The translations under genes and the position numbers were made by a program. Under the pieces are notes generated by a model. That model had not been told where the DNA came from, made no database searches, and saw nothing but the letters and a program-made list of their open reading frames with translations. DNA of 35,814 nucleotides from a virus. Below, piece after piece: positions 1,625 to 31,911 of this stretch (position 1 is the stretch's first letter; every line of letters starts with the position of its first letter). The stretch spans positions 1 to 35,814 of the IMG/VR virus record IMGVR_UViG_3300020020_000109. One strand, written 5' to 3'.

Positions 1625-1864
1625 TTATTGCGTAACGTTGCCAGCACCATCGCAGGCAAAGCATACACCATTCGCGACGTGAGCGAAGCTCCTGATCCAT
1701 CCCGAGCCCATGCACCTGCCGCAGCGCATGACACCGGCAGCGGTGCGCTTAGCGGCGCGAGTGGCGAGCACTGCCTTGACAGCGGCGCGGGCGGTATCTT
1801 CGCCGACTGCCCAGGACCAGAACGCATCTTTCTGCTCTTGCGTCTCTTCGTAATAGTGTGTCAT
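1625..1864 (-). CDS. 79-residue protein with C-terminal DnaJ-like zinc knuckles
   Basis: The N-terminal 44 residues are helical and charged (MTHYYEETQEQKDAFWSWAV). The C-terminal third holds C48-x2-C51-x-G-x-G and C68-x2-C71-x-G-x-G (CGRCMGSG and CFACDGAG), the zinc-binding CxxCxGxG repeats known from DnaJ and from many small phage proteins. The same pair of knuckles with almost the same wording sits at the N-terminus of the gene at 4168-4521, so the two are probably related by domain shuffling. The ATG follows CACCAACAGAAAG by 7 bases. Role unknown; DnaJ co-chaperone function is not implied because there is no J domain. Confidence 0.8.
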   Translation of the reverse strand: MTHYYEETQEQKDAFWSWAVGEDTARAAVKAVLATRAAKRTAAGVMRCGRCMGSGWIRSFAHVANGVCFACDGAGNVTQ

Positions 1865-1919
1865 CGTCTGCTTTCTGTTGGTGAGCCTAGATTATAGCAC
1901 CGTTATCGGGTAACGGTGC
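1865..1919 (-). promoter_or_regulatory. Composite early promoter/leader element, copy 2
   Basis: Perfect 9-bp inverted repeat GCACCGTTA (1897-1905) and TAACGGTGC (1911-1919) with a 5-base spacer. It abuts a perfect -10 box TATAAT (1891-1896, read leftward), followed by CTCACCAACAGAAAG before the ATG at 1864. Confidence 0.8.
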
Positions 1920-1924
1920 GTTGT

Positions 1925-2140
1925 TTATGCGCAAATTGCGCGGAAGATTTTCGCCTGCTCGCGATAGTAATCGCGTGTGGCCTGATTGACCGAGCGGTCA
2001 CGCGAGGCTTCTTCGCACTCGCACACCGCAACAGCGGCAAGGAGATCGGCCTTCTCTTGATCGAAGGGACGCCCGAAGTCGGCGAAGATAAACGCGTCGT
2101 AAGTGGCGATTGCCTTGTCTGCTGCTTGATATTTGGTCAT
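1925..2140 (-). CDS. 71-residue helical protein of unknown function
   Basis: The sequence is mostly helix-forming and charged (MTKYQAADKAIATYDAFIFA, later DQEKADLLAAVAVCECEEAS and RDYYREQAKIFRAIC). No motif or family recognised. The ATG at 2140 is fixed by the leader CACACCAACCGAAAG 6 bases upstream. It has its own promoter element and is followed by the next copy, so it can be expressed as a single-gene unit. Confidence 0.7.
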   Translation of the reverse strand: MTKYQAADKAIATYDAFIFADFGRPFDQEKADLLAAVAVCECEEASRDRSVNQATRDYYREQAKIFRAICA

Positions 2141-2190
2141 TTTCGTCTTTCGGTTGGTGTGACCGAATTATAACCCGTTATTGCGTAACG
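2141..2190 (-). promoter_or_regulatory. Composite early promoter/leader element, copy 3 (overlaps coding end)
   Basis: Dyad CGTTA (2176-2180) and TAACG (2186-2190), -10 box TATAAT (2167-2172), leader CACACCAACCGAAAG. The dyad and the -10 box lie inside the last codons and stop codon of the upstream gene at 2168. Confidence 0.75.
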
Positions 2191-2377
2191 TCGCAAGCGC
2201 TTTCTGAAAATGTTCATAGGCGTCTGCTTTCGCTTGTCGGAACGTGGTCGACTGCGACACCTCGACACCGTTGTACTTCAGACTCCACACGTCACCCAGG
2301 CGAGAATGATCCTTCTCGCACGTGTAGTTGCCGCAGATGTACCGCCCGTGCGCATACTTGTGCCTGTGCCATCTCAT
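2168..2377 (-). CDS. 69-residue basic protein with possible zinc site
   Basis: The protein starts MRWHRHKYAHGRYICGNYTC. Its dense histidines and the pair C15, C20 suggest a metal site. It continues with DVWSLKYNGVEVSQSTTFRQ, a strand-turn-strand that resembles small phage modules, and ends in a helix. The ATG at 2377 overlaps the TGA of the upstream gene (ATGA), so translation is probably coupled. An in-frame ATG at 2413 would intrude into that gene. The final residues TLRNNGL and the stop codon are encoded by the promoter dyad and -10 box of the next gene. No family recognised. Confidence 0.65.
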   Translation of the reverse strand: MRWHRHKYAHGRYICGNYTCEKDHSRLGDVWSLKYNGVEVSQSTTFRQAKADAYEHFQKALATLRNNGL

Positions 2378-2838
2378 GCGGGCACCTCCACGAGCACCCA
2401 GGCGGATACCCATTTGCGGCCTGCTTCACCTGGGACGCTCGCGATCTGCGGCACACCGTCGAATTGCATGACGCCTTCGCGCACGGCGACAGCGAACTTC
2501 GTCTGTGCGGCCTGGATGATGGCGAGTTCTTCGCGTGCGCGAGCGTGTCGCTTTGCGCGATCCGCATCTATGATGCGCTGCTCTTCTTCGAGCTTTGTGC
2601 GCTGTTCATCGAGCCATCTGCCGTGCCGTATCCAATCGATATTTTGATCGAGCAACCATGCCTCTGCTTCGGCATCGGCGAAGATTACGCTCGTGCCTAG
2701 ACTACCCTCCCACGGTGCCTGTCTGCCGTTGATGCGGCCTGTGACGCTCACACGTCCGTTCTCGTGCTGGTGTACGCTGACCGAGTCGAGGAGCTTGCCT
2801 GCGTTGTTCTTTGCGTCGTTCGCGATTCTGAATTTCAT
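2374..2838 (-). CDS. 154-residue protein of unknown function with coiled-coil centre
   Basis: An N-terminal strand-rich domain (MKFRIANDAKNNAGKLLDSV, then VHQHENGRVSVTGRINGR) is followed by a long charged helix at about residues 75-112 (LDEQRTKLEEEQRIIDADRA) and a compact C-terminus. No named family recognised. The start has the early leader CACAGCAGAAAG 6 bases upstream, without a promoter box, so it is probably cotranscribed with the gene at 2862. The stop overlaps the next start. Confidence 0.7.
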   Translation of the reverse strand: MKFRIANDAKNNAGKLLDSVSVHQHENGRVSVTGRINGRQAPWEGSLGTSVIFADAEAEAWLLDQNIDWIRHGRWLDEQRTKLEEEQRIIDADRAKRHARAREELAIIQAAQTKFAVAVREGVMQFDGVPQIASVPGEAGRKWVSAWVLVEVPA

Positions 2839-2861
2839 GGTGTGCTTTCTGCTGTGGGTGG

Positions 2862-3266
2862 TTATTCGGTTTCGCTCGGTAGGTCGGTCAACAGTTCGTC
2901 ATGCATCTCGACATCATCGAAGCTGATCTCTGCGTCGGGCATGTCGATGCTTGCTTCGTCTAGGTCGACGCTCTGCCATGCTTCGATCATCTCGCGCACT
3001 GCGCTGCCCTTGTCGCCTTCTTGCCAGCGTTCGGACTTCTCTTCGAAATCGTTCTCCCAATTCTGCGCGACATCTTCAGCGAACGACTTCGCTTCAGCGA
3101 GCGCTTCATTGTAGGCGTCGAGTGCCTCTTGCAGTTCTGCGCGTGCGACGGTCATCGCATCATTAAACGCTGTCACTGCGGTGTTGACCGCTTCGCGTTG
3201 CTCTTGAATCTTCACCGCGATTGCGTCGCGCTGTGCTGTTTGTTCTTTGGTGAGCTTGAAGGGCAT
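2862..3266 (-). CDS. 134-residue acidic coiled-coil protein
   Basis: Residues 5-75 form a nearly continuous heptad-like helix (LTKEQTAQRDAIAVKIQEQR, later ARAELQEALDAYNEALAEA). The C-terminal 40 residues are strongly acidic (DLDEASIDMPDAEISFDDVE). Such acidic small proteins of phages often act as DNA mimics or protein inhibitors, but nothing here proves that. The ATG at 3266 overlaps the upstream TAA. The upstream gene's last codons supply a leader-like CATCAAGAAAG 7 bases before it. Confidence 0.7.
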   Translation of the reverse strand: MPFKLTKEQTAQRDAIAVKIQEQREAVNTAVTAFNDAMTVARAELQEALDAYNEALAEAKSFAEDVAQNWENDFEEKSERWQEGDKGSAVREMIEAWQSVDLDEASIDMPDAEISFDDVEMHDELLTDLPSETE

Positions 3267-3445
3267 TAGTTGCTTTCTTGATGGTAGATGAAATACTCGG
3301 CAGGGTTGCCGTGCTTCTTGTCCCTAGAGTTATACAGGGACGTTCTGCGGGTGATGAATTGCTTCGCCTCTTCCAGGGTTGCGCCTGCCCAGACGATGAG
3401 ACAACCTCCCATCGGTCCGGCTTCGCATACAAAGTATTCTGGCAT
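3266..3445 (-). CDS. 59-residue protein of unknown function
   Basis: The frame encodes MPEYFVCEAGPMGGCLIVWA, then GATLEEAKQFITRRTSLYNS and a tyrosine-rich end (EYFIYHQESN). A predicted strand-strand-helix order is typical of small phage accessory proteins. The ATG at 3445 follows a leader-like CAACTGAAAGAAAG overlapping the end of the preceding gene. The stop TAA overlaps the next ATG. Tight packing with both neighbours and fully protein-like composition support it. No family recognised. Confidence 0.65.
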   Translation of the reverse strand: MPEYFVCEAGPMGGCLIVWAGATLEEAKQFITRRTSLYNSRDKKHGNPAEYFIYHQESN

Positions 3446-3454
3446 GTCTTTCTT

Positions 3455-3628
3455 TCAGTTGATGGATTTGAGTGCCGACATCGGCAACGCGATCTCTCCG
3501 CGCATCTTGCGGCCTGTGGTCGGGCAGACCTCTTTGAGTTGCGCATACTGCTCGTTGCCGATGGTGCGAAACCCCAGGATCACGAAGGTTCCGACCTTGA
3601 CGCCTTTGACTGTTTGTCCGATTTGCAT
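3455..3628 (-). CDS. 57-residue protein, possibly a small beta-barrel
   Basis: The frame encodes MQIGQTVKGVKVGTFVILGF, RTIGNEQYAQLKEVCPTTGR and KMRGEIALPMSALKSIN. The run of alternating hydrophobic strands with glycine turns and basic residues looks like a small SH3-like or OB-like barrel, as in several phage nucleic-acid-binding proteins. This is an inference from pattern only. Its ATG lies 6 bases after CAACAGAAAGG and it has its own promoter element, making it the first gene of a short operon with the genes at 3266, 2862, 2374 and 2168. Confidence 0.7.
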   Translation of the reverse strand: MQIGQTVKGVKVGTFVILGFRTIGNEQYAQLKEVCPTTGRKMRGEIALPMSALKSIN

Positions 3629-3684
3629 TTTGTGCCTTTCTGTTGGTGAGCTTGAATTATAGCACCGTTAGCGGGTAACGGTGC
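3629..3684 (-). promoter_or_regulatory. Composite early promoter/leader element, copy 4
   Basis: Perfect 9-bp inverted repeat GCACCGTTA (3662-3670) and TAACGGTGC (3676-3684). Perfect -10 box TATAAT (3656-3661), then CTCACCAACAGAAAG. A run of nine T (plus strand) lies just beyond the dyad. Confidence 0.8.
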
Positions 3685-3695
3685 GTTCTTTTTTT

Positions 3696-4079
3696 TTATT
3701 TGACGGCGAAGGGCTTGTTCCACTTGCCGACGTTGATGTCGACATAGTGACCGACGTGGAAATAATCGGTCATGCTGTCTGACTTGTCGAAGTTGTCGAG
3801 GTTCAGAGCGTCGCTGATCTTTGCGAAAATCGCGGTCATCTCGGCGCACGTGAAGCACTCGTCGGTGCGCTTGTGGTAAATCTGCGCATAGGTCATCGTG
3901 GCAGGGTTGCGGAACTCGCTCGGCACCAGGGCTGCGATGATGTCGACGGGTGCCGAAGCGATGTTCAGAACGATGGTGGAGTGGTTCTGCACAGCGAGTG
4001 TGTACTTCCAACCCTTCGGCATCACCGGCTTGAGTGCGGCGGCGATTTTTGCTTTCTTGTCTTGATCTACGTAGGCCAT
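3696..4079 (-). CDS. 127-residue protein of unknown function
   Basis: A soluble mixed alpha/beta protein: helix (DQDKKAKIAAALKPVMP), strands (GWKYTLAVQNHSTIVLNI), a segment with two cysteines (TDECFTCAEMTAIFAKISDA) and an aromatic C-terminus. I do not recognise a named domain, though the layout (LKPVMPKGWKYTLAVQNHST) resembles conserved hypothetical proteins seen in other phages. The start at 4079 has the motif CACACAGAAAG 6 bases upstream and a variant promoter element further up. Confidence 0.75.
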   Translation of the reverse strand: MAYVDQDKKAKIAAALKPVMPKGWKYTLAVQNHSTIVLNIASAPVDIIAALVPSEFRNPATMTYAQIYHKRTDECFTCAEMTAIFAKISDALNLDNFDKSDSMTDYFHVGHYVDINVGKWNKPFAVK

Positions 4080-4156
4080 GATGTTCTTTCTGTGTGTCGG
4101 TTGCTGAAGATTCGATTATAGCGAGTTTTTCGCCGTTATGGTGGTAACGGCGAAAA
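4080..4156 (-). promoter_or_regulatory. Composite early promoter/leader element, copy 5 (long-arm variant)
   Basis: The inverted repeat is extended to 12-bp arms, TTTTCGCCGTTA (4127-4138) and its complement (4145-4156), with a 6-base spacer instead of 5. The -10 box TATAAT (4115-4120) is set off by 6 bases. The leader is altered (CAACCGACACACAGAAAG) and longer than in other copies. Confidence 0.75.
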
Positions 4157-4167
4157 TCTTTTGACTG

Positions 4168-4521
4168 TTACATCTCTTGTGCGAGGGCAGCGCTGACCAT
4201 CTCGCCGATTGTCTTGCCGGTGTTGCGCTTGGCTGCGCACATGCGGTCGTATGCGCCCTTCTCATTGTCGGCGAAGGGACCATACAGAGCGTCGATCTCG
4301 GCGCTGAATTGGCGAGCGAGTTCCTGACGGCGGGCCATCGTGGCGTCAGCCTTCGCTTGACGTGCGGCCTTCGCTGCCTGGGCCTTCGTGTGCTTGGCGG
4401 CGTCGACCATCATGAAGCCTGCGCCATTGCAGCCGAAGCACACCGTGCCGCGTGTCAGGTTGAAACTGAACTTGCCCGAGCCCATGCAGCGTGTGCAGGT
4501 GATTTTAGTTGCTTTGGTCAT
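4168..4521 (-). CDS. 117-residue protein with N-terminal DnaJ-like zinc knuckles
   Basis: Residues 9-12 and 28-31 form CxxCxGxG knuckles (CTRCMGSG and CFGCNGAG) that match those at the C-terminus of the 1625-1864 product. The rest is a basic, alanine-rich helical region (AKHTKAQAAKAARQAKADAT) and a helical end (GKTIGEMVSAALAQEM). Zinc binding is well supported by the motif. The function is unknown, though the lysine- and alanine-rich helix suggests nucleic acid contact. The start follows TTAACGAAAGACGCAA, a degenerate leader. Confidence 0.8.
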   Translation of the reverse strand: MTKATKITCTRCMGSGKFSFNLTRGTVCFGCNGAGFMMVDAAKHTKAQAAKAARQAKADATMARRQELARQFSAEIDALYGPFADNEKGAYDRMCAAKRNTGKTIGEMVSAALAQEM

Positions 4522-4580
4522 TTGCGTCTTTCGTTAATTCGTTGCGATGACGAATTATAGCCCGACGTTATCGCGTAACG
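4522..4580 (-). promoter_or_regulatory. Composite early promoter/leader element, copy 6
   Basis: Dyad CGTTA (4566-4570) and TAACG (4576-4580), with the -10 box TATAAT at 4554-4559. The leader is degenerate (GAATTAACGAAAG) and lacks the usual CACACCAAC part. Confidence 0.7.
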
Positions 4581-4599
4581 CAACAGCAAATGAAAATAA

Positions 4600-4815
4600 T
4601 TATTTGGCGACGGCTTTGGCGGCGAGTTGTCCTGCATAGGTACAGGGTTCCCAGGTGATAACGGTGGTCACGGCACTGCCTGGACGCACCATGAGCCGGT
4701 CTGCGCGCCTGATGGCACGTAGAGCCGTTGCGGCGCTCTTGTAGGTTCGGTCGTGCTCTTTCCAGAGCCATCCGCCCGCAGGCAGTTCCATCAGGGTGAT
4801 CGAGCGGCGAATCAT
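4600..4815 (-). CDS. 71-residue protein of unknown function
   Basis: The frame encodes MIRRSITLMELPAGGWLWKE, a helix HDRTYKSAATALRAIRRADR and a strand-rich end. Its start overlaps the TGA of the preceding gene (ATGA), so the two are probably translated together. This favours it over the longer overlapping frame that begins at 4828. No family recognised. Confidence 0.65.
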   Translation of the reverse strand: MIRRSITLMELPAGGWLWKEHDRTYKSAATALRAIRRADRLMVRPGSAVTTVITWEPCTYAGQLAAKAVAK

Positions 4816-5060
4816 CGCACGTACCCATTGCGGATCAGGAATGCCAGCAGATCGGCCTGTGAGCCTTCGCGGGTCTTTCCCTTATACAGTGGGTGGCAGT
4901 TCACGTAATAGACCGTCTTGCCTTCGCGGCATAGTTCGCCGATCAGATGCATTGCCTTCTCTTCGAGTCGTTCCAGACGTTCGACGGTCTTGTCGTCACG
5001 ATTCATGCGCGTGATGTGCTTGCGTTCCATGATCTCGTCCCAGGATTTGCGTGCTGTCAT
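4812..5060 (-). CDS. 82-residue helical protein of unknown function
   Basis: The N-terminal half is a charged helix (DKTVERLERLEEKAMHLIGE). The second half reads TVYYVNCHPLYKGKTREGSQ and then a helix ADLLAFLIRNGYVR. No named family recognised. The ATG at 5060 lies 6 bases after CACACCAACAGAAAG and has its own -10 box and dyad. It forms a two-gene unit with the gene at 4600. Confidence 0.7.
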   Translation of the reverse strand: MTARKSWDEIMERKHITRMNRDDKTVERLERLEEKAMHLIGELCREGKTVYYVNCHPLYKGKTREGSQADLLAFLIRNGYVR

Positions 5061-5113
5061 TTCTGTCTTTCTGTTGGTGTGCCGCTAGTATAGCACAGCG
5101 TTACTCGATAACG
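5061..5113 (-). promoter_or_regulatory. Composite early promoter/leader element, copy 7 (overlaps coding end)
   Basis: Dyad CGTTA (5099-5103) and TAACG (5109-5113), -10 box TATACT (5087-5092), leader CACACCAACAGAAAG. The dyad covers the last codons and the TAA stop of the gene at 5101. The -10 block with its flank is nearly identical to that of copy 10. Confidence 0.75.
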
Positions 5114-5340
5114 GCGACTTCGACAACACTCCATCCAAAAGATAGCCATCGACCTTCGGTCGGTGCCCAGAAGCGATTGACTCGATTCAGAGCCACGAGC
5201 GTGACTTGTCGAACTTCGCCGGTGTACGTGATGGTGTCGCAATCCATGCCGGTGCGCGGGAAGCACCGATCATAGCGCAGCATGTCGAGGGGGAAGTCCC
5301 CCCTCCCTTCGACGGTGAATTTAATGTCTGCTTTTTTCAT
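5101..5340 (-). CDS. 79-residue protein of unknown function
   Basis: The protein starts MKKADIKFTVEGRGDFPLDM and continues with alternating strands (DTITYTGEVRQVTLVALNRV) and an aromatic end (FWAPTEGRWLSFGWSVVEVA), suggesting a small beta-rich fold. The start at 5340 directly follows the stop of the gene at 5343, so coupling is likely. The in-frame ATG at 5388 would overlap that gene by 46 bases. Its last residues are encoded by the promoter dyad of the next unit. No family recognised. Confidence 0.65.
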   Translation of the reverse strand: MKKADIKFTVEGRGDFPLDMLRYDRCFPRTGMDCDTITYTGEVRQVTLVALNRVNRFWAPTEGRWLSFGWSVVEVAVIE

Positions 5341-5342
5341 GA

Positions 5343-5645
5343 TTACATGCTCGTATAGAGGCCGGTGTGTTCTTCGAACGAAGCGCACAGTTGATCGGCG
5401 AAGATGCTCTTGACTGCGGCCTTCGTGGTGAGCTTGAGCGAGCGCAGCGAATAGAACGTGACGTTATACAGGTCGTCTTCGGTCAGCGTGACGGCAACAC
5501 GATTCACGCCTTTGGCGTTGCGGCCAATCGAGAACATTAGCGTTCCGCGTTGGTCCTTGGAGTCGAACGAGAAGTTCTTCGCGCCGGTCATGACCGCGAA
5601 CTTGTTGCCGCCGAGTTGCTTGATGATGGTTTCTGCGATTTGCAT
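5343..5645 (-). CDS. 100-residue protein of unknown function
   Basis: A basic, strand-rich protein: MQIAETIIKQLGGNKFAVMT, GAKNFSFDSKDQRGTLMFSI, then VAVTLTEDDLYNVTFYSLRS and a helical C-terminus. The pattern NKFAVMTGAKNF...LMFSIGRN...VAVTLTEDDLYNV resembles a family of small hypothetical proteins found in many phages of Proteobacteria, but I cannot name it. Its start has the consensus leader CACACCAACCGAAAG at 6 bases. Confidence 0.75.
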   Translation of the reverse strand: MQIAETIIKQLGGNKFAVMTGAKNFSFDSKDQRGTLMFSIGRNAKGVNRVAVTLTEDDLYNVTFYSLRSLKLTTKAAVKSIFADQLCASFEEHTGLYTSM

Positions 5646-5698
5646 TTCTGTCTTTCGGTTGGTGTGGATGAATTATAACCCGTTATTCCGTAACGGGT
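5646..5698 (-). promoter_or_regulatory. Composite early promoter/leader element, copy 8
   Basis: Perfect 8-bp inverted repeat ACCCGTTA (5678-5685) and TAACGGGT (5691-5698) directly abutting the -10 box TATAAT (5672-5677). Leader CACACCAACCGAAAG. Confidence 0.8.
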
Positions 5699-5704
5699 CA
5701 ACAA

Positions 5705-6019
5705 TCAGTTAGAAATATTTGTCAGGCCAGGAGCAGCGATTGCGCGCTGGACATCGGCGAGAGTGTAATAAATGATTTCCTTGTCTTGACCGAAGGCGAC
5801 CGAGTGAGCGACGCGAAGCTCGCCGTCTTCGCCGATGCAAAATTCTTTCTTGCCGAAGACGTTCGCACCCATGATTGCGCGTTGCTGTGCAGCGCTCAGG
5901 CGAATCCACTTGCCTTCGAGCCCCAGGAGAGCGACGCATTCGAACAGTGCGCGAGCGTCCTTCTCTTCGGCGATTGCCCAGGCGGCGATTTCTTGAAACT
6001 TGATGGTGGAGGTGGTCAT
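5705..6019 (-). CDS. 104-residue protein of unknown function
   Basis: An N-terminal helical half (TIKFQEIAAWAIAEEKDARA) is followed by a strand-rich segment (CIGEDGELRVAHSVAFGQDK) and an alanine-rich helix. There is no catalytic or metal motif. It is a single-gene unit with its own element, and the ATG lies 6 bases after CACACCAACAGAAAG. No family recognised. Confidence 0.7.
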   Translation of the reverse strand: MTTSTIKFQEIAAWAIAEEKDARALFECVALLGLEGKWIRLSAAQQRAIMGANVFGKKEFCIGEDGELRVAHSVAFGQDKEIIYYTLADVQRAIAAPGLTNISN

Positions 6020-6074
6020 TTCTGGCTTTCTGTTGGTGTGAGGGAATTATAGCACCGTTTCCGCGTAACGGTGC
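6020..6074 (-). promoter_or_regulatory. Composite early promoter/leader element, copy 9
   Basis: Near-perfect 9-bp inverted repeat (GCACCGTTT 6052-6060, TAACGGTGC 6066-6074) beside the -10 box TATAAT (6046-6051), then CACACCAACAGAAAG. Confidence 0.8.
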
Positions 6075-6083
6075 AATTTCTTT

Positions 6084-6281
6084 TTATTCTTTCGGCAGTT
6101 GCGGCTTGCCCAGGCGGCGGCGTTCGTACAACACCGTGCACGCGTCGTTGACTTGATCGAGATACTTGCACTCGGCCTTTTCATCATGGCCGCGCATCGC
6201 GAGAGCGGCTTCGCCTGCGTCGCGCACGATGAATTCGAGTTCGCCGATGGATTTTGTACGATAAAGATTGAGCTGGTTCAT
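6084..6281 (-). CDS. 65-residue helical protein of unknown function
   Basis: The frame encodes MNQLNLYRTKSIGELEFIVR, DAGEAALAMRGHDEKAECKY and LDQVNDACTVLYERRRLGKP. This is an almost wholly helical protein with two cysteines, consistent with a small helical hairpin. No family recognised. The start has the consensus leader CACACCAACAGAAAG 6 bases upstream and a promoter box just after the terminator of the previous gene, so it is an independent unit. Confidence 0.7.
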   Translation of the reverse strand: MNQLNLYRTKSIGELEFIVRDAGEAALAMRGHDEKAECKYLDQVNDACTVLYERRRLGKPQLPKE

Positions 6282-6313
6282 GGTGCGCTTTCTGTTGGTG
6301 TGCCGCTAGTATA
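6282..6313 (-). promoter_or_regulatory. Composite early promoter/leader element, copy 10 (no dyad)
   Basis: Only the -10 box TATACT (6308-6313) and the leader CACACCAACAGAAAG are present. The CGTTA/TAACG dyad is missing and a transcription terminator lies directly upstream instead. Confidence 0.65.
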
Positions 6314-6320
6314 GCACAGA

Positions 6321-6348
6321 TAAAAAGAAGAAGGGCAAGAGCCCTTCT
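6321..6348 (-). terminator. Intrinsic terminator of the first leftward gene
   Basis: Read leftward: an 8-bp stem AGAAGGGC / GCCCTTCT with loop TCTT (arms at 6341-6348 and 6329-6336), followed by a TCTTTTT tract. It directly follows the stop of the gene at 6357 and separates it from the next promoter. Confidence 0.75.
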
Positions 6349-6356
6349 CTTATTGT

Positions 6357-6914
6357 TCATTGCACCTTCGGGCGGTTGATGACGGTTTGTGCGACACCGT
6401 TGTACGCTGCATGCTCTTTCACCGTCGCTTTAACGGTCACGGTTGCGCCTTGCTCGCCGAGTTCAGTCGTGCCCTTGTACTTAAACACGTTGCCGTTAGC
6501 GTCGCTGCACAGGTGCATATAAGAGGTGCCGTACATGCCATCCATTTCGATGATCTTATTGATGGTGAGCGTAAACACTTCGCGCTGACCGACGGTGCCC
6601 ATGTGATTGCCAGAGGTGGCAGGCGCGTCACGCTGAGCGATGCGCTCGGCCTTGCGTGCTGCGGACTTAGCCATCATGCCACGGGCGGCGTCGAGTTGAG
6701 CGGGTGACAGCTTGCCGAAGTCATCATATGAACCGGCGAGGGACCGGGCGAACTCGGACCAGCTAGAAGCGTTGCGCAGGAAGTCGATGACATCATAGCC
6801 GTCGGTGTTCTCGCGGTGGAACTTGTCTTGCGAAGCGTTCTTGATCTTCCGCTTGATGGCGGCTTCGTATGCTGCTTCGTCTTCGATCATGTTGGAGTTG
6901 AATGCGCGGGTCAT
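6357..6914 (-). CDS. 185-residue protein, first gene of the leftward cluster; possible C-terminal OB-like fold
   Basis: The N-terminal two thirds are charged and helical (DEAAYEAAIKRKIKNASQDK, later SPAQLDAARGMMAKSAARKA). The C-terminal 80 residues are a beta-rich segment (REVFTLTINKIIEMDGMYGT, FKYKGTTELGEQGATVTVKA, TVKEHAAYNGVAQTVINRP). It has the strand spacing of OB-fold domains and the AYNG..QTVINRPK ending often seen in phage single-strand-binding-like or hypothetical DNA-metabolism proteins. The function is inferred weakly. The ATG at 6914 lies 6 bases after CAACCAACAGAAAG. The in-frame ATG at 6962 lies upstream of the -10 box and is rejected. Confidence 0.75.
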   Translation of the reverse strand: MTRAFNSNMIEDEAAYEAAIKRKIKNASQDKFHRENTDGYDVIDFLRNASSWSEFARSLAGSYDDFGKLSPAQLDAARGMMAKSAARKAERIAQRDAPATSGNHMGTVGQREVFTLTINKIIEMDGMYGTSYMHLCSDANGNVFKYKGTTELGEQGATVTVKATVKEHAAYNGVAQTVINRPKVQ

Positions 6915-12536: not shown

Positions 12537-13784
12537 ATGGCAATCGCAAAAGGTGCAAATAAGCTCTTAATCGCAAAGCGGCAACCGGCAAAGGGAACGC
12601 TCGCGGTTCCCGGTACGGGTGGACAAGTCATTCGTCGCGACACATCGACATTCGACAGGACAAAAGAAGCATATACAACTGAGTCTGAACAGACATCGCG
12701 CAAGCAGTTGATGTCTTCGCGGCATGGTGCTGTGACTGTCAACGGCTCTGTGTCGTCGCTGTTCTCTCCTGGCACGTTCGCCGACTTCTTCGCTGCGTTG
12801 CTCATGCGCGAGTTCACCGCAATCCCGCCCATATCAAACGTGACGGCAACAGTTGCAATCGTGGGCAGTGGCCCGACGTACACCATCGGACGCAGCACCG
12901 GCTCGTGGCTCACAGACGGCGCGAAGATCGGTCGCGTCATTCGTCCGACTGCGGGTCTTGCTGCCGGTGTTGCCGGTGTTGGTGGCTCGCGGCGCAATTG
13001 CTTAATCACTGCGGTGTCGGCAACGAGCATCACGGTGATGCCGCTCAATCGCAAAGGGCTCGCCGTTGAGACAGCAATCCCGTCGTCGTCGTTCTCGTTC
13101 CCAGGCGGCATTACGTTCGTGCCTGAGACGGGACACACCGACATCTACTATACATTCGAAGAGTGGTTCCCTGAAGTACCGCGCAGCCAACGCAATCAGG
13201 ACGTGAAGGCCGCATCGGTGAATGTGCGCCTGCCTGGATCGGGCAACGCCGGTCTTGATTGGTCGTTCCTGGGCCTGGATCAACTCAAAGACCCGGCACG
13301 CTACTTCGCAGCACCGGCAAACGAAACCACGACGGGCGTCATGGTGGCAGCGGGCGGCGCTTTGATCGTCGGCGGTGTGCGTCGCGGCACGGTGACTGAT
13401 CTCTCGTTGACCCTGGACGCTCGCGGCGCTGTGGCTGATCCTGTTGTGGGTGACGTGATTCGTCCTGACGTGTTCACCGGCAAGCTCATGGCGAGCGGGA
13501 GTTTCACTGCATACTATGACAGTGCGGACATTCCCGATCTTTATGACGACGAAGTCGAAACGAGCATCGTCTCTGCTCTTGCGGCGAGCAATGCAGACAC
13601 GGCGGATTTCAATACGTTTTCGCTTCATAAGGTCAAGCTCAATTCCAGTACCCCTGATGACGTTGAGACGGGCTTGAAGCGCACATACAACTTCGTCGCG
13701 TTGTTCAACGATGTCGGCGGGCCTCTGTTGTCGGCGAATGCGTCGACGATTGAATTGCAAGACAGTGCAGTTGTTCCCGCGTAA
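12537..13784 (+). CDS. Major tail (tube) protein
   Basis: The 415-residue protein begins AIAKGANKLLIAKRQPAKGT and is rich in beta-strands. It follows the tail terminator and precedes the chaperone genes, the standard place for the tube protein. Landmarks are SEQTSRKQLMSSRHGAVTVN near residue 50, a large middle domain, and a C-terminal KHxVKLNSSTPDDVETGLKR-like strand set (FSLHKVKLNSSTPDDVETGL). It is longer than a minimal tube subunit (about 200-250), which leaves room for an extra domain on the outside of the tube. Shine-Dalgarno GAGGA is 10 bases upstream. Confidence 0.7.
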   Translation: MAIAKGANKLLIAKRQPAKGTLAVPGTGGQVIRRDTSTFDRTKEAYTTESEQTSRKQLMSSRHGAVTVNGSVSSLFSPGTFADFFAALLMREFTAIPPISNVTATVAIVGSGPTYTIGRSTGSWLTDGAKIGRVIRPTAGLAAGVAGVGGSRRNCLITAVSATSITVMPLNRKGLAVETAIPSSSFSFPGGITFVPETGHTDIYYTFEEWFPEVPRSQRNQDVKAASVNVRLPGSGNAGLDWSFLGLDQLKDPARYFAAPANETTTGVMVAAGGALIVGGVRRGTVTDLSLTLDARGAVADPVVGDVIRPDVFTGKLMASGSFTAYYDSADIPDLYDDEVETSIVSALAASNADTADFNTFSLHKVKLNSSTPDDVETGLKRTYNFVALFNDVGGPLLSANASTIELQDSAVVPA

Positions 13785-13806
13785 ACAATACTCAAGGAGA
13801 ATACAC

Positions 13807-15288
13807 ATGGCTGAAGGCGACAAGCTCACAGGTACATTCGTCGGTACGTTTACGGGCACGTTCACTGCCGCTGATGCGCCTGCGCCGTCGCCTGCTCCAT
13901 CTCCTGCGCCTGTACCGACACCGGCACCTCCTGCGGTGCAGGCAGAGAGTCCTAACGGCACGACGATGCCGCCTGCGCCCGCAATCTTTGACAGCACGGG
14001 CGCACGCTGGTCTGTGGTCGGCGGCGCTATTCGTCGCAATGGTGCTGACACCATCTCATCGAACGTGAAGCTGATGCTCTATCACAATGGCACTGTCTAT
14101 CAGAACAACGAAGCTGGCGGGTGGTGGAAGTGGCAGAGTGACAAATGGGTCGATGCATTCGATCCGCGTGTGTCGACATCGACGCCTGCGCCATCTCCTG
14201 CGCCTGGACCCACACCGGCACCGGCACCGTCGACAGGCATGCCGGTTATCGAAGATGTTGTTCGACATCCTGCCGACATGCTAGAGATCGACAAGTATTG
14301 GATCATCGATAACCGATGGGGCAAGGCCGGGATCAACGAAGGCACCGCATCGTATGACTTCATGCAGGCAATCAATCGCCTGGATACCGTGTCGGCGAAT
14401 GGCGGTATTGCTTGCCGCATCAAATGGAAATGGCCTGAGTTCAATCAGCAAGGCCAGAAGATCAACGACAACCCTGCGTACAGCGAAGTCAAGGGCTATC
14501 CAGGCATCATCTACGGGCCTGCGCCGGGTCACTCTGGTCCGGACCAATGGCCCGCGTGGGAGTACGCTGTGCGCGCTCCTGACGGTGTTGTCGTGCAGAC
14601 TCCTCCGGACAATGCGCCACCGACTGTGAAGAACGGATGGCAACCGAAAGGCGGATCGGTCATTCGTCGCGTGCCGTGTGGTGCTGCGCCTGGGCATGCC
14701 TTGCCGAAGCGCTTGAACAGCATGGCACCGGGCTCGCTTGTTGCCGACATGAAGTGGAAGAAGAGCGGCGCGACAAGTGGGCGCGGACACCTGTCCTGGG
14801 ACATCTGGCTACAGGAAACAACCGATCAAGCCTTCGGATTCAACAACGCGTCGCTCACGCACGAGATCATGATTCCAATGGGCAATTGGGGCCTCTACGG
14901 GCGGCATCCGAATGGGCGCAATCCTGGGTGGTATAGCCACGACGTAACGATTGACGGTGTGCTCTATCACGTCTATCTTGCGGGCGCGGCCTACTCATTC
15001 GGCGGCGGCATGCGCGGCAACTTCACGAATGAAGAGACAGGCGGCAAGCGCACAGGTTGGAAGTTCGTTGTGTTCCAGCACGACGGCGACAATCATCCGA
15101 CTGATGCGAGCGGCAACATTCATCTCGACTTCACGAAGTTCTTCGCGCACATGACATCGCACAAGGGCTTAGGCAATGTGAACATTGCACGCGGCGTCGA
15201 GTATTGCACGAACATCCAGATCGGCATCGAAGCTGTGTATGGTCCCGGCGACGTGACTATCTATGATTTCAACATCACGGGAAAGTAA
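13807..15288 (+). CDS. Virion-associated protein with GH12-like glycoside hydrolase domain
   Basis: A 493-residue modular protein. Residues 7-20 are a GTF repeat. Two proline/alanine linkers (about 24-44 and 125-145) flank a small domain with YHNGTVYQNNEAGGWWKWQS, a module I associate with secreted glycosidases. Residues 160-493 look like the GH12 jelly roll: YWIIDNRWG, WKWPEFN...VKGYPGI, HLSWDIWL, and EIMIPMGNWG with E353 as candidate nucleophile. The end IGIEAVYGPGDVTIYDFNIT has E475 as candidate acid/base (family pattern GTExxxGxGxxT). GH12 enzymes cleave beta-1,4-glucans such as cellulose or xyloglucan. The start at 13807 has AAGGAG. Position between tube and chaperone genes implies a tail or capsid decoration. 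Confidence 0.65.
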   Translation: MAEGDKLTGTFVGTFTGTFTAADAPAPSPAPSPAPVPTPAPPAVQAESPNGTTMPPAPAIFDSTGARWSVVGGAIRRNGADTISSNVKLMLYHNGTVYQNNEAGGWWKWQSDKWVDAFDPRVSTSTPAPSPAPGPTPAPAPSTGMPVIEDVVRHPADMLEIDKYWIIDNRWGKAGINEGTASYDFMQAINRLDTVSANGGIACRIKWKWPEFNQQGQKINDNPAYSEVKGYPGIIYGPAPGHSGPDQWPAWEYAVRAPDGVVVQTPPDNAPPTVKNGWQPKGGSVIRRVPCGAAPGHALPKRLNSMAPGSLVADMKWKKSGATSGRGHLSWDIWLQETTDQAFGFNNASLTHEIMIPMGNWGLYGRHPNGRNPGWYSHDVTIDGVLYHVYLAGAAYSFGGGMRGNFTNEETGGKRTGWKFVVFQHDGDNHPTDASGNIHLDFTKFFAHMTSHKGLGNVNIARGVEYCTNIQIGIEAVYGPGDVTIYDFNITGK

Positions 15289-15762
15289 ATGGAATTAGAT
15301 CAAGTTCAAGAAGAGCCCAATACACAACGCGTTGCTGTTGCGTGGGACGAAGAAGGCGAACCTACTGACGGCTTCATCATCGTCGGCAAGGACTCGGATG
15401 AATACCAGAAAACAATCGCCGGACAGCGGCAGAAAGCGATTCGCCGACAAGCAATCAAGCGAACACGCTTCGATCTCAAGACCGAAGAAGGTGCTGAGCA
15501 ACTTGACGCAACGCTACGGCAGAACGAATTTGAAATGGCTGCTGCGGTTGTTGTGGGTTGGTTTGGTTTCACGGTTAAAGGGCAAGCTGCGCCGTTCGTC
15601 AAAGAGCGAGTGATACAGATACTTTCCGTAAAGCCAAGTTGGAAAGACCGCATACTTGCAGCACTTGAGGATGAAGCGTCTTTTTTGAAGCCATCACAGT
15701 CGACATCTGCACCTTCGTCGAAGCCAGTGCTCACGGTGGCAAAAGAGGTAAAGACGGCGTAA
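15289..15762 (+). CDS. Tail assembly chaperone, short form (G-like)
   Basis: A 157-residue acidic and basic mixed protein (MELDQVQEEPNTQRVAVAWD, later RQKAIRRQAIKRTRFDLKTE) directly before the tape-measure gene. This fits lambda gpG-type chaperones, which bind the tape-measure protein during tail assembly. The middle WFGFTVKGQAAPFVKERVIQ and KPSWKDRILAALEDEASF are helical. A slippery heptamer at codons 131-133 allows part of the ribosomes to continue in the -1 frame into the T part. The 24 residues after the slip site exist only in this short form. Confidence 0.8.
   Translation: MELDQVQEEPNTQRVAVAWDEEGEPTDGFIIVGKDSDEYQKTIAGQRQKAIRRQAIKRTRFDLKTEEGAEQLDATLRQNEFEMAAAVVVGWFGFTVKGQAAPFVKERVIQILSVKPSWKDRILAALEDEASFLKPSQSTSAPSSKPVLTVAKEVKTA
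15681..15687 (+). promoter_or_regulatory. Programmed -1 frameshift site (T TTT TTG)
   Basis: In the G frame the codons are TCT TTT TTG, so the heptamer T-TTT-TTG is exactly X-XXY-YYZ. A -1 slip re-enters a frame that is open without stops from here to 16076. The shifted codons start at 15687. Confidence 0.85.
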
Positions 15763-16076
15763 CGCTGTACGAGACGCTCACAGTTGTTGAAAGGATGACG
15801 GGTGTTGCTCCTGAAGAACTTGTTCAACTTCGTTCGCATCAAATGCCAACGGGTACAGATTATCTTTGGGATTGGTTCATCCGTCTCAGTAGCACACGTG
15901 CGGCAGGCTTCGGCGTGTCAGCTATATCAGAGTTGGAGCTTCGAGCCTTCTTCAGCAATCGCAATATCGTACCTACATCCTGGGAGCTTGACACACTCAT
16001 TCGCATGGACAGGACCATGCGTGAAGCGTCTTCTGATGACAAGAAGAGGCCAGATGAAGAAGAGGTCGTGGAGTAA
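15687..16076 (+). CDS. Tail assembly chaperone frameshift extension (T part of GT)
   Basis: Entered by -1 frameshift, this frame gives 129 residues beginning EAITVDICTFVEASAHGGKR. It is fused to the first 133 residues of G for a GT product of about 262 residues. A free ATG at 15795 exists (MTGVAPEELVQLRSHQMPTG), but the open frame upstream of it and the perfect slippery site favour fusion. As in lambda, the T part would bind tail-tube subunits while G binds the tape measure. A low GT:G ratio is expected. Confidence 0.8.
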   Translation, partial: EAITVDICTFVEASAHGGKRGKDGVTLYETLTVVERMTGVAPEELVQLRSHQMPTGTDYLWDWFIRLSSTRAAGFGVSAISELELRAFFSNRNIVPTSWELDTLIRMDRTMREASSDDKKRPDEEEVVE

Positions 16077-16082
16077 TGTCGC

Positions 16083-19000
16083 ATGGACATAACAACACTC
16101 GGCATCGGCGTTGACTCAAGTCAGGTCGGTCAAGGCAGTAGTGCGCTTGACGAATTGACGCGTGCGGCACTCAAGGCCGCAGAGGCGATGGATAAGGTCG
16201 GCTCGAAAGGCGGCAAAGGCGGCGACGACGCAGCGAAGGGTATCTTCAAGGGCACCATTGCTGCCGATGCTTTTAAGAAAGGCGTCGAGATAGCCATTGA
16301 ATCTGTCAAGCAACTCTATTCGTTGATGTCGCAGGCCGGTGACTTCGCCGATCTCGGTGACATGACAGGTGCGGCAGCAGAGAACATCGCGAAGCTACAG
16401 ACAGCAGCCGATGTGGCCGGTGTGTCGATGGAGTCGATGGCAGGCTACATGAATCAGATGACGCGTGTACTTGCAGCGACTGATGAAGAAGGCGACAAAG
16501 CCGCACGAGCGCTGCAAAAAATCGGCATCAACTTTCAAGACTTTCAAGCGTTGGACCCTGCCGAGAAAATGGCGAAGCTCGGGCAAGAGATGGGCAGGTA
16601 TGGTGACGGTGTTGCTAAGACTGAGATTCTGCAAGCCATCTTCGGCAGAGGTGCGGGCGCAGTAGGTAAAGCATTGAAGGTGCTTGCGAATGAGCAAGCA
16701 TTCAACACGAAGCTCACTGGTGAAATGATCTCTCGTGTCGATGACTTGAACGATTCAAATGCGCTGTGGGCATCGCAAACGAAGCAAGCGGTTCAGTTCT
16801 TGACGATAGGAGCAACACCGGCGATCTCTGCGTTCACTGCTGCAATGGGCACAGCGGTGATGAATGCGCTCGGTTTGGGCAAGGGCATGGATTCTCTTGC
16901 GTCGAACAAGGCTATCGAAGAATTCGCAAAAGGCGCGGTGACGCTGATTGGTGAAGTTATCGAAGCCGTGCAGATTGTTTCTCGCACCGTTGAATTTCTT
17001 ATCTCTGGCATCACCTCTCTTGCGAAAGCAACTGTTGCCGCTGCAAAGCTCGATTGGGGCGGTGTAGAAGCAGCGTTCGCTGAACATGCAAAGACGACTC
17101 AGGATATTTTGAAGCGCGAGTTGTTCGGCAAAACTTTGCGTGATGCCCAGGACAAACAGTTGCGAGATCGGATCAATGCAGAGGCCGATGCCGCAGAACA
17201 GACCTTGACGATTGTCAAAGGTAAGACTGACGCAGAAATAGCAGAAGAGAAGAAGAAGGCGGCTGAACTCGCGAAGCTAATAAAGAAGCAGGACGAAGAC
17301 TTCGCGAAGATGCAGGAGGGTGCTTCTCTCAAAGCCGCCGGTCTTGATCCAGGCTTCATCGAAGATATGAAGTTGATTAATATTCAGCTTCAACGGCGCA
17401 ACATCACTGAAACGCAGTATAGACAGATCGTTGACGATTTACTTCAGCAGCAACCGTACTATACAGACGGGCTTAAGGAGCAAGCGAAAGCGGCTGAAGA
17501 TTACATCAAGGCAGAGACAGATGCATACGAGAACGCGAAGAAGGATCGTGATGCACAACTGAAGGCGTCTAACGAAGCGGTAGCTGCTGCGCAAGCTGAA
17601 CTTGAGGGGCGCGGCAAGTTGAAGAGCGAGATCGGCGCGACAACGTTGCTGCGCTTAGAAGAACAATTGGTTGTTCATCAGAGCGACCCAATCATGAAGG
17701 CTCATCTAGAAGCCATGATTGCGAATCAAAAGAAGATCAACGCAGCACTCAAAGGTGTCGAGACGATTGACGCGGCGAAGAAGGGTGCGGAAGAAATAAA
17801 GAAGGCGTATGAAAAGGCGTGGGATCAGATCGGGCAATCGCTCACCGATCAATTGATGAAGGGCTCGCTCAACGCGAAAGAACTCATTGAGAATTTATTC
17901 AAGACTATGATTCTTCGCCCGACGATCATGGCAGCGGCGCAGGGTATCGGCAGTTCATTCATGGGCAGTGCAGTCGGTGGCGCAACGGGCGGCGCGGTTG
18001 GTGGTGGTGGCGGCGGCGGCGGCTTCGGTGGCACGATGGGCTCGCTGGCCGGACAGGCGGCGGGATCGTCCCTCTTTGCCGGTGTCGGCACCGCTGCGAC
18101 GACGACGTACAGCGGCGCTATGGCGGCGGGCCTGCCTGCGGCCAATGCGATAGGCATGGGTGCCGGTGCGGGGCTCGCTGCAATCCCTGTGGCGGGCTGG
18201 ATAGCCTTGGCAGCGGTTGCGGCCTATGCTGCCTACAAGAAGTGGGGCAATCACAAAGGCGGGCCAAAGGTTGAAGGCTCTGCGGGCTTCGAGGCCGGTT
18301 CGTTGATCGGCAACATGGGCAATGCAATGGATGCCAATGCCATGCGTGCAGTGAGCGATTTGAGCACGCAGTACCGGCGCATGGCGCAGATGCTTGGATC
18401 GTCGCGGCAAGAGATGGGCTTCGGTGTTGGTTACTCGATGGACCCGGCAGGCACAGCACCATCGATGGTGCAGATTCGCAGCGAGATCAGTGAATCGGTG
18501 GATCGAAACGCAGGACGCACAGCCGAAGAATTACAGAAAGCATTGGCAGCAGGTTCCGCGAAAGTCATGGTCGAAGCGTTGCGCAATTCTGGCATGGATG
18601 CGCAGATGCTCGCCTACTTCGATGAAGTCACTGTTGGCATGACTGATGAAGCGAAGCTCGGTGCGTTCGAACAAGTTGCCGCTGTTGGAAAATATTGGAA
18701 GTCCATGCAAGCGATGGGCTATGTTGTCAAGGGCTTTAGCTCGATCTCGCTTGAAGCCGCTGTGAGTCTCGCCGAGCTTTCCGGTGGCATCGAAAATCTA
18801 TCGGCAGGTATTTCCGGCTACGTCGCAAACTTCTTCACCGACACCGAGCAATTGAGCATCGGCTATCAAGCGCTAGCCAATCAACTCAATCAAGCTGGCA
18901 CAGGCTGGGAGGGTTTCTCGGAAACGATTCTTCGCACGTGGAGCAAAGAACATTTCCGAGAAGTAGTTGAAGGATTGAATCTCGCGGAAGAAGGCGACAG

Positions 19001-20303
19001 GATGCGCTACGCATCGTTGATGCAAGCCGCAGGCGCTTTCGCTGAACTCGATAAGCAAGCGAGAGCGGCTAATGATTCGATCAATGATATGTGGATGCAG
19101 ATACGGGCGCTAGGGACTCAGGGAAGTTATCTGAGTCGAGTGTCGCAAATGGCTGCGGACAGACTTGTTGATCTTGCTGGCGGTGTCGACAATCTTGCGT
19201 CCAGTGTTGCCACGTATCACGAGAAGTTCTTCACTGACGCTGAGAAAGAGAGCATGGCCTATCAGCAAATGGCCGCATCTCTCAATGAAGCAGGCAGCGG
19301 ATGGACAGGCTACACCGAAGCTATTTTGCGAAGCTATAGTCCTGCGCGTCTTCGTCAGATTATCGAAGGGCTCAACCTCGAAGATGAAGGCGACAGGATG
19401 CGCTACATCTCGTTGTTGAAAATCGCGGGCACGTTTGCTGAACTTAAAGATTCGTCTGAGGCTGTTGCCAAGGCAACGGAAAGATATGACAACGCACTAG
19501 AGAACTTGCGCGGTGCCTATGATCGGCAGAAAGATGTTCTGACAACGACGCGTGACGCGATGAAGTCCGCTACGCAATCGTTCTTAGACTTCAACGATTC
19601 ACTGAGAGTCGATCAGGCATTGAGCACGCTTAATCCGCAAGAGCGGATGGCAGAACTCGAAAGGCAATACAGCGAAGCACGTCAGCAAACGGTGATGGGC
19701 GGCTACAAAGCCGAAGACGTAGCGCGCATGCAAGAGACTGCGCGAGCCTTGCTGCAAGGCGGCAGGGAAATGTACGCTTCGGGTGCGGGCTATGATGACT
19801 TGTTCAAGAGGATCACAGAGGAGATGGAGGGAGCAGCCGGTGCCACAAGGTACAGGCAGGACATCGCCGAGAATCAGTTGCATCAACTCGAAGTGCAAGT
19901 AGGCTATCTCGTGAGTATCGACACAACGCTCATCAGCGTTAATGAAGCGCTGTGGGAACTCAATTCTGCGCGCAGTGAAGTCTATGCTCTGGGCTATCCG
20001 CATGCCGAAGGCTTGTCGCGTGTCCCGTTCAATAACTATCCTGCGTTGCTTCATCAGGATGAAATGGTCTTGCCTCAAAATGAATCAGCATTCCTTCGCG
20101 GTCTGCCGGACTTCTCAGGGGAGTTGCGGGCGCTGCGTCAAGAGGTGACACAATTGCGCAGAGAAAATCGGCAGGATGCAGGGAACACAATCGGTGCTAC
20201 GTTCACAGCGGCGCAGCAGTCAGCACAAGTGCAAAGCGAGGCGACTATTCGAGCGGCTCGCCAGCGCATGTATCAATCACGTTCACGGCCCGTATTGGCC
20301 TAG
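16083..20303 (+). CDS. Tape measure protein
   Basis: The 1406-residue protein is the longest of the tail-assembly block and follows the chaperones. It opens with MDITTLGIGVDSSQVGQGSS, has two hydrophobic segments (about 237-266 and 692-722), a coiled-coil-rich middle at about 340-600, a glycine-rich stretch near 630-655 and, towards the end, HQDEMVLPQNE in YPALLHQDEMVL, the usual tape-measure C-terminal signature. By the rule of about 0.15 nm per residue the tail would be about 200 nm if unprocessed. Residues about 890-1155 contain a 132-residue tandem duplication. Expected role: sets tail length and is ejected with the DNA. Confidence 0.9.
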   Translation: MDITTLGIGVDSSQVGQGSSALDELTRAALKAAEAMDKVGSKGGKGGDDAAKGIFKGTIAADAFKKGVEIAIESVKQLYSLMSQAGDFADLGDMTGAAAENIAKLQTAADVAGVSMESMAGYMNQMTRVLAATDEEGDKAARALQKIGINFQDFQALDPAEKMAKLGQEMGRYGDGVAKTEILQAIFGRGAGAVGKALKVLANEQAFNTKLTGEMISRVDDLNDSNALWASQTKQAVQFLTIGATPAISAFTAAMGTAVMNALGLGKGMDSLASNKAIEEFAKGAVTLIGEVIEAVQIVSRTVEFLISGITSLAKATVAAAKLDWGGVEAAFAEHAKTTQDILKRELFGKTLRDAQDKQLRDRINAEADAAEQTLTIVKGKTDAEIAEEKKKAAELAKLIKKQDEDFAKMQEGASLKAAGLDPGFIEDMKLINIQLQRRNITETQYRQIVDDLLQQQPYYTDGLKEQAKAAEDYIKAETDAYENAKKDRDAQLKASNEAVAAAQAELEGRGKLKSEIGATTLLRLEEQLVVHQSDPIMKAHLEAMIANQKKINAALKGVETIDAAKKGAEEIKKAYEKAWDQIGQSLTDQLMKGSLNAKELIENLFKTMILRPTIMAAAQGIGSSFMGSAVGGATGGAVGGGGGGGGFGGTMGSLAGQAAGSSLFAGVGTAATTTYSGAMAAGLPAANAIGMGAGAGLAAIPVAGWIALAAVAAYAAYKKWGNHKGGPKVEGSAGFEAGSLIGNMGNAMDANAMRAVSDLSTQYRRMAQMLGSSRQEMGFGVGYSMDPAGTAPSMVQIRSEISESVDRNAGRTAEELQKALAAGSAKVMVEALRNSGMDAQMLAYFDEVTVGMTDEAKLGAFEQVAAVGKYWKSMQAMGYVVKGFSSISLEAAVSLAELSGGIENLSAGISGYVANFFTDTEQLSIGYQALANQLNQAGTGWEGFSETILRTWSKEHFREVVEGLNLAEEGDRMRYASLMQAAGAFAELDKQARAANDSINDMWMQIRALGTQGSYLSRVSQMAADRLVDLAGGVDNLASSVATYHEKFFTDAEKESMAYQQMAASLNEAGSGWTGYTEAILRSYSPARLRQIIEGLNLEDEGDRMRYISLLKIAGTFAELKDSSEAVAKATERYDNALENLRGAYDRQKDVLTTTRDAMKSATQSFLDFNDSLRVDQALSTLNPQERMAELERQYSEARQQTVMGGYKAEDVARMQETARALLQGGREMYASGAGYDDLFKRITEEMEGAAGATRYRQDIAENQLHQLEVQVGYLVSIDTTLISVNEALWELNSARSEVYALGYPHAEGLSRVPFNNYPALLHQDEMVLPQNESAFLRGLPDFSGELRALRQEVTQLRRENRQDAGNTIGATFTAAQQSAQVQSEATIRAARQRMYQSRSRPVLA
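18755..19546 (+). repeat. 132-residue tandem duplication inside the tape measure gene
   Basis: The blocks LSGGIENLSAGISGYVANFF and LAGGVDNLASSVATYHEKFF are 396 bases apart. Both are followed by TD.E...YQ, then GW.G..E.ILR, then EGLNL..EGDRMRY.SL. DNA identity is visibly lower than protein similarity, so the duplication is old. Confidence 0.75.
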
Positions 20304-31615: not shown

Positions 31616-31911
31616 TCGACCTTTCCTTTCTCTCTTCGGCCTGCTGGTTCTTCATCGGCGTCACGGCTCTCGTTGCTAGCTTCAATGACATGGTACGCAA
31701 GACTGTCATGGAGTGTGTCGCATTGGGCGGTGTCAGCCTGGGCGCGTTCTCGCGGTCTTACTATGTTTACATGCGGCACGAGACGGACCCTGATGCATTG
31801 TGGATTTCCATTGCGCTCGCGCTCTATTGCCTTGCCATGTGGTACAAAATGATGTGGGTGATTCCGCATCGTCCTGACTACAGACCGCCACCGAAATCGC
31901 GCCACTACTGA
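31612..31911 (+). CDS. Second lysis membrane protein (holin or antiholin)
   Basis: A 99-residue protein with three hydrophobic segments at about 5-24 (SFLSSACWFFIGVTALVASF), 33-52 (MECVALGGVSLGAFSRSYYV) and 63-83 (LWISIALALYCLAMWYKMMW), and a basic C-terminal tail. The arrangement of a second small membrane protein between a holin-like gene and an endolysin suggests a co-holin or antiholin, but no sequence mark decides it. The start overlaps the preceding gene by 4 bases and the stop overlaps the next ATG by one base. Confidence 0.65.
   Translation: MIDLSFLSSACWFFIGVTALVASFNDMVRKTVMECVALGGVSLGAFSRSYYVYMRHETDPDALWISIALALYCLAMWYKMMWVIPHRPDYRPPPKSRHY

Follow-up and report, generated by a model that had tools for sequence, protein, structure and literature searches.

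That depolymerases occur on tailed phages is well known. In the Friunavirus phages of Acinetobacter, tailspike depolymerases keep a constant N-terminus and exchange their catalytic part in otherwise syntenic phages (PMC6966330). The Erwinia amylovora phage S6 requires bacterial cellulose as its first receptor, and its cellulases gp094/gp095 are a GH5 protein active on carboxymethylcellulose plus a GH48 protein (PMC9544554). The locus described here resembles each of these systems in part. It shares the pattern of constant N-terminus and exchangeable enzyme with the friunaviruses, although their tailspikes are pectate-lyase-type. With S6 it shares a predicted phage beta-1,4-glucanase, but S6 is an N4-like podophage whose GH5 and GH48 enzymes are encoded at a different genome place, and their role is experimentally supported in S6 whereas we infer it here.

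The enzyme concerned is a 493-aa protein encoded in the window, that is, the whole 35,814-nt stretch of viral DNA that was analysed. It is predicted to share its fold (from a structural model) and its catalytic pair (from alignment) with the GH12 endoglucanases and xyloglucanases (PF01670; the Bacillus licheniformis xyloglucanase 2jem/2jen, 1oa4 and 1nlr CelB2). The motifs N-x-W-G, W-x-W, VKxYP, DIWL, EIMI and G-x-E are collinear between the solved enzymes and the phage domain, but the latter is longer (347 aa with insertions, against about 220), reads HEIMIP in place of EIMIW, and belongs to a protein with its own linkers and module and with no visible signal peptide. The secreted GH12-like proteins of Ramlibacter and Polaromonas (L066-L074) are like the phage domain in their HEIMIPL motif and fall in the same clade. 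Unlike the phage gene, theirs are chromosomal and encode apparent secretion or lipoprotein signals at the N-terminus (read by eye), which are not visible in the phage copies, and some of them also carry CBM5/12-like or CBM35 domains.

The gene lies at 13807-15288 on the + strand, as do all features of the window named below, and its stop-free translation gives the 493 aa. Homologues stand at the same place in 20 related contigs, and dN/dS values of 0.03-0.22 among relatives indicate purifying selection. The start at 13807 is backed by the ribosome-binding site AAGGAG (13794-13799), read directly from the sequence 7 nt 5' of the ATG, together with the MAEGDKLTGTF start conserved among relatives; a start at 13711, given in a mechanical ORF list, falls within the tail tube gene and is unlikely.

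The protein opens with the peptide MAEGDKLTGTFVGTFTGTFT (about residues 1-22; 13807-13872), a putative virion anchor whose LTGTFxGTFTGTF motif is kept in relatives and in which no hydrophobic signal sequence is visible by eye. It continues with a proline-rich linker that AlphaFold2 models at low confidence (residues 23-46; 13873-13944), a GGWWKW module of about 75 aa delimited by the alignment of relatives and by modelled beta strands (residues 47-121; 13945-14169), a second proline-rich linker evident in the sequence (residues 122-145; 14170-14241), and the 347-aa GH12 catalytic domain placed by Foldseek, profile and hhalign (residues 147-493; 14245-15285). The preliminary description had already proposed proline linkers joined to a small accessory module, and the layout and the module alignment of relatives confirm that both are real. 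All three GH12-type blocks that it quoted were also located at the residues claimed (SWDIWL at 330-335, EIMIPMGNWG at 353-362 and IGIEAVYGPGD at 472-482), so that E353 and E475 sit where it had put them.

We consider it almost certain that this protein belongs to GH12, as a divergent but intact member. The proposed profile check against PF01670 succeeded only at the level of the family: the 493-aa sequence alone had no GH12 match in Pfam, NCBIfam, PHROGs or PDB searches, whereas profiles built from its relatives matched GH12. The only weak Pfam match of the single sequence, to Kelch (E 0.14), and its PDB matches to myosin linkers were matches of composition. The whole-protein PDB profile was swamped by the proline linkers, which was solved by trimming to the catalytic domain. 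One phage homologue (L008) reaches PF01670 at E 7.9e-5 and 23.3 bits, under the 27-bit cut-off. A profile made from ten phage domains alone had the GH12 endoglucanases 1oa4, 2bw8 and 1h0b as its top three PDB matches (best E 5.4e-4) and was collinear with them all the way between the N-x-W-G motif and the final Glu.

A first genome scan for catalytic homologues found nothing; a second, with other patterns, gave the Ramlibacter homologues, and the bacterial homologues, in Ramlibacter and Polaromonas, are 31-37% identical over the whole domain. Two of them, L066 (40.0 bits) and L072 (35.8 bits), pass the Pfam GH12 cut-off of 27; one that passes, from Ramlibacter, is 37% identical to the phage domain. 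With the joint phage and bacterial profile, all 11 PDB matches at E<=1, among 177,635 distinct PDB sequences, were GH12, the best being the B. licheniformis xyloglucanase 2jem (E 1.2e-16). The hhalign probability was 98.9% (97.8% with the phage-only profile) against six solved PDB GH12s as the only targets; the unbiased test lies in the whole-PDB searches with both profiles and Foldseek.

The structure prediction suggested in the preliminary description agrees with its family assignment. A template-free AlphaFold2 model of the catalytic domain, made from phage sequences alone (pLDDT 79.5, pTM 0.85), is predicted to adopt the GH12 beta-jelly-roll fold, and the best 50 matches listed in a Foldseek search of the PDB were all GH12 (best E 3.6e-14; TM up to 0.82 on target length). 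Sequence profiles, hhalign, predicted fold and a Pfam-passing homologue thus all back the assignment.

The GH12 catalytic signature places the nucleophile in E-x-M-x-W and the acid/base in G-x-E-P. By hhalign against 1oa4, E353 in the HEIMIP motif (codon 14863-14865) pairs with the EIMIW glutamate and E475 in the GIEAVYG motif (codon 15229-15231) with the GFEPW glutamate, which are the GH12 nucleophile and acid/base, respectively. Both residues are invariant in 17/17 aligned catalytic domains, phage and bacterial, and are the predicted catalytic pair. The residue after EIMI is Trp in the aligned solved GH12s and Pro in the clade of the phage domain (Ile in one subgroup). Because of this replacement the specificity may differ from that of the solved enzymes, and the natural target may be something other than plain cellulose.

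The GGWWKW module probably binds carbohydrate; its alignment has 13 invariant columns, 5 of which are Trp. It forms beta strands at pLDDT 70-79 in the full-length AlphaFold2 model, which is poor overall (pLDDT 55) and served for this module only. Searches assigned it to no Pfam family and yielded nothing convincing in the PDB; the best structural match was to a designed protein, over the first half only, and no single stretch passes alone. A short phage ORF (L022:23-421) bears the module without GH12, which gives it the look of a mobile domain not yet described.

The preliminary description had placed the gene between tube and chaperone genes and called this unusual, and both remarks stand. 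Upstream lies the tail tube gene (12537-13784; PF18906, E 1.1e-13), and downstream two tail assembly chaperone genes (15289-15762, phrog_313, E 1.2e-10; 15795-16076, PF23812, E 7.8e-9), followed by the tape measure gene (16083-20303; phrog_25966, E 4e-24). The GH12 gene stands between tail tube and first tail chaperone in 20/20 contigs that reach past the tube; the 20 include one contig identical to the window, and five more, which stop before the spot, were left out of the count. This puts a polysaccharide-degrading domain among virion genes throughout, as in depolymerases. In the collections searched the arrangement is unusual: four named phages with tubes 26-36% identical to this one (Caulobacter phage DMCA, Limnohabitans phage DC31, Curvibacter phage P26059A and Bradyrhizobium phage ppBdUSDA122-1) have no comparable gene after the tube. 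The interval between tube and chaperone genes is an unusual site for a tailspike, which counts against a virion depolymerase.

Conservation differs between the parts of the protein. A contig (L015) whose tube and first chaperone are 86-90% identical to those of this phage encodes a protein that is 84% identical over the first 46 aa and 72% over the GGWWKW module, and only 41% over the catalytic domain. Two catalytic GH12 lineages occupy the slot between tube and chaperone: the L015 type groups with Ramlibacter sequences (support 90/97 and 87/88), while the type of the 493-aa protein forms its own clade with L035 (support 100/98). These comparisons point to a putative anchor and a module that stay constant while the enzyme they carry is exchanged, a pattern also seen in depolymerases.

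In two other phage contigs, L035 and L036, a GH12 domain lies inside beta-helix, tailspike-like proteins. The L036 protein (1761-5189; 1142 aa in one frame) has a beta-helix start, a GGWWxW-type module and a GH12 domain; that of L035 (63-6032; 1989 aa) combines a beta-helix with GH12 and GH18-like domains and with GH8 (PF01270, E 4.5e-14). GH8 includes beta-1,4-glucanases, and the presence of GH12 and GH8 on one tail-type protein therefore indicates a beta-1,4-glucan target.

Several side observations belong here. In L036 a GH18-like domain seems to be inserted within GH12, directly after the NRWG motif, making an unusual nested two-enzyme tailspike-like protein. The window itself encodes, at 29299-31278, a protein of 659 aa that has repeat domains and, embedded at about residues 328-605, a GH18-like domain 34-36% identical to those of L036 and L035; this domain may be non-catalytic because its DxxDxDxE motif is degenerate (DGVDFNNWVGD). 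A canonical GH12 (PF01670, 92 bits) is encoded beside tail-type genes in an unrelated viral contig (L075:4518-5522) and adjoins, by eye, a putative GH26-like ORF (5607-6485). Finally, a 411-aa protein of the window (31911-33146) looks like a fusion of lysis proteins: its N-terminal half is endolysin-type (phrog_90) and its C-terminal half membrane-type (phrog_1544).

The remark that GH12 is rarely noted on phages also holds in the collections searched. Neither the 493-aa protein, nor the second catalytic lineage, nor the canonical GH12 1oa4 had a match in 50,697 phage records; PHROGs gave no GH12 match, and BFVD no matching structure at E<=0.001. A literature search, with most subscription papers outside its coverage, found no report of GH12 on a phage. 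A mention of "family 12" in one phage paper proved to be GH127, and mentions of "GH12" in two others proved to be GH120 and GH127.

Regarding the host, homologues of the catalytic domain are mostly from Ramlibacter (13/60 genomes of the genus; 5/251 of the family). Relatives of the tail tube occur in 5/251 Comamonadaceae genomes and in 0/274 genomes sampled over the class, a survey that weakly favours a Comamonadaceae host. Among named phages, those nearest by tube have Limnohabitans and Curvibacter (both Comamonadaceae) as hosts, with a Caulobacter phage equally near. Together, the Ramlibacter homologues, the tube relatives and the nearest named phages suggest a Comamonadaceae-like host.

Considering all the above results, we propose, with a probability of roughly 0.75, that the phage carries the GH12 protein on its particle as a depolymerase, directed at a beta-glucan exopolysaccharide that a Comamonadaceae-like host produces; the place in the virion, the substrate and the host are what we infer. 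Attachment to the tail would probably be through the LTGTF segment; both proline linkers would serve as spacers, and the module would probably bind polysaccharide. The C-terminal domain would cleave beta-1,4-glucan-type chains by a retaining mechanism, with E353 as predicted nucleophile and E475 as acid/base. On its way to the cell the phage would thus bind and cut an exopolysaccharide resembling cellulose, xyloglucan or mixed glucan. A virion location is argued for by the invariable position in the tail operon, the four named phages that have no comparable gene, the lack of a visible signal peptide, the conserved N-terminus and the occurrence of the same domain in the tailspike-like proteins of L035 and L036. 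The family itself, plus the GH8 fusion in L035, speaks for a beta-glucan substrate.

Given that the gene comes directly after that of the tail tube and starts with short beta-type repeats (LTGTF), the enzyme may decorate the tube in many copies, as a depolymerase-studded shaft rather than a tip spike, with a catalytic cassette drawn from secreted enzymes of the host family. We regard this arrangement as doubtful. It is unlikely, in our opinion, that the protein is an auxiliary metabolic enzyme, produced during infection and then released to degrade environmental plant polysaccharide and feed the host without being part of the virion. This is how polysaccharide-degrading enzymes on soil viral contigs have been read (PMC6786970, PMC9485262), and the bacterial homologues, some of which have CBM5/12-like or CBM35 domains, do resemble secreted polysaccharidases. 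However, the phage protein has no visible signal peptide, its gene is always within the tail operon, its N-terminal segment is conserved despite the exchange of catalytic domains, and elsewhere the GH12 domain is found in tailspike-like proteins.

We think it very unlikely that the protein is a soluble depolymerase, not bound to the virion, that is freed at lysis and aids the exit of progeny and their spread through the matrix; a self-contained protein with no signal peptide would be compatible with such release, but the conserved N-terminal segment and the tail-operon position argue against it. Lastly, we give hardly any credence to a non-catalytic GH12 fold that would serve adsorption as a lectin and do nothing more: a glycoside hydrolase fold can take on a binding role, and Pro stands in place of the Trp after EIMI, but both catalytic glutamates are invariant across phage and bacterial members and other hydrolase domains are found fused to homologues.

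On the virion-depolymerase reading, GH12, which is fixed across one clade of uncultured phages, would be a further fold that phages use against beta-glucan matrices. The same reading predicts that the hosts, probably Comamonadaceae-like, make a beta-glucan slime. It would also mean that viral cellulase genes of this kind, when met in environmental data, are not necessarily auxiliary metabolic genes.
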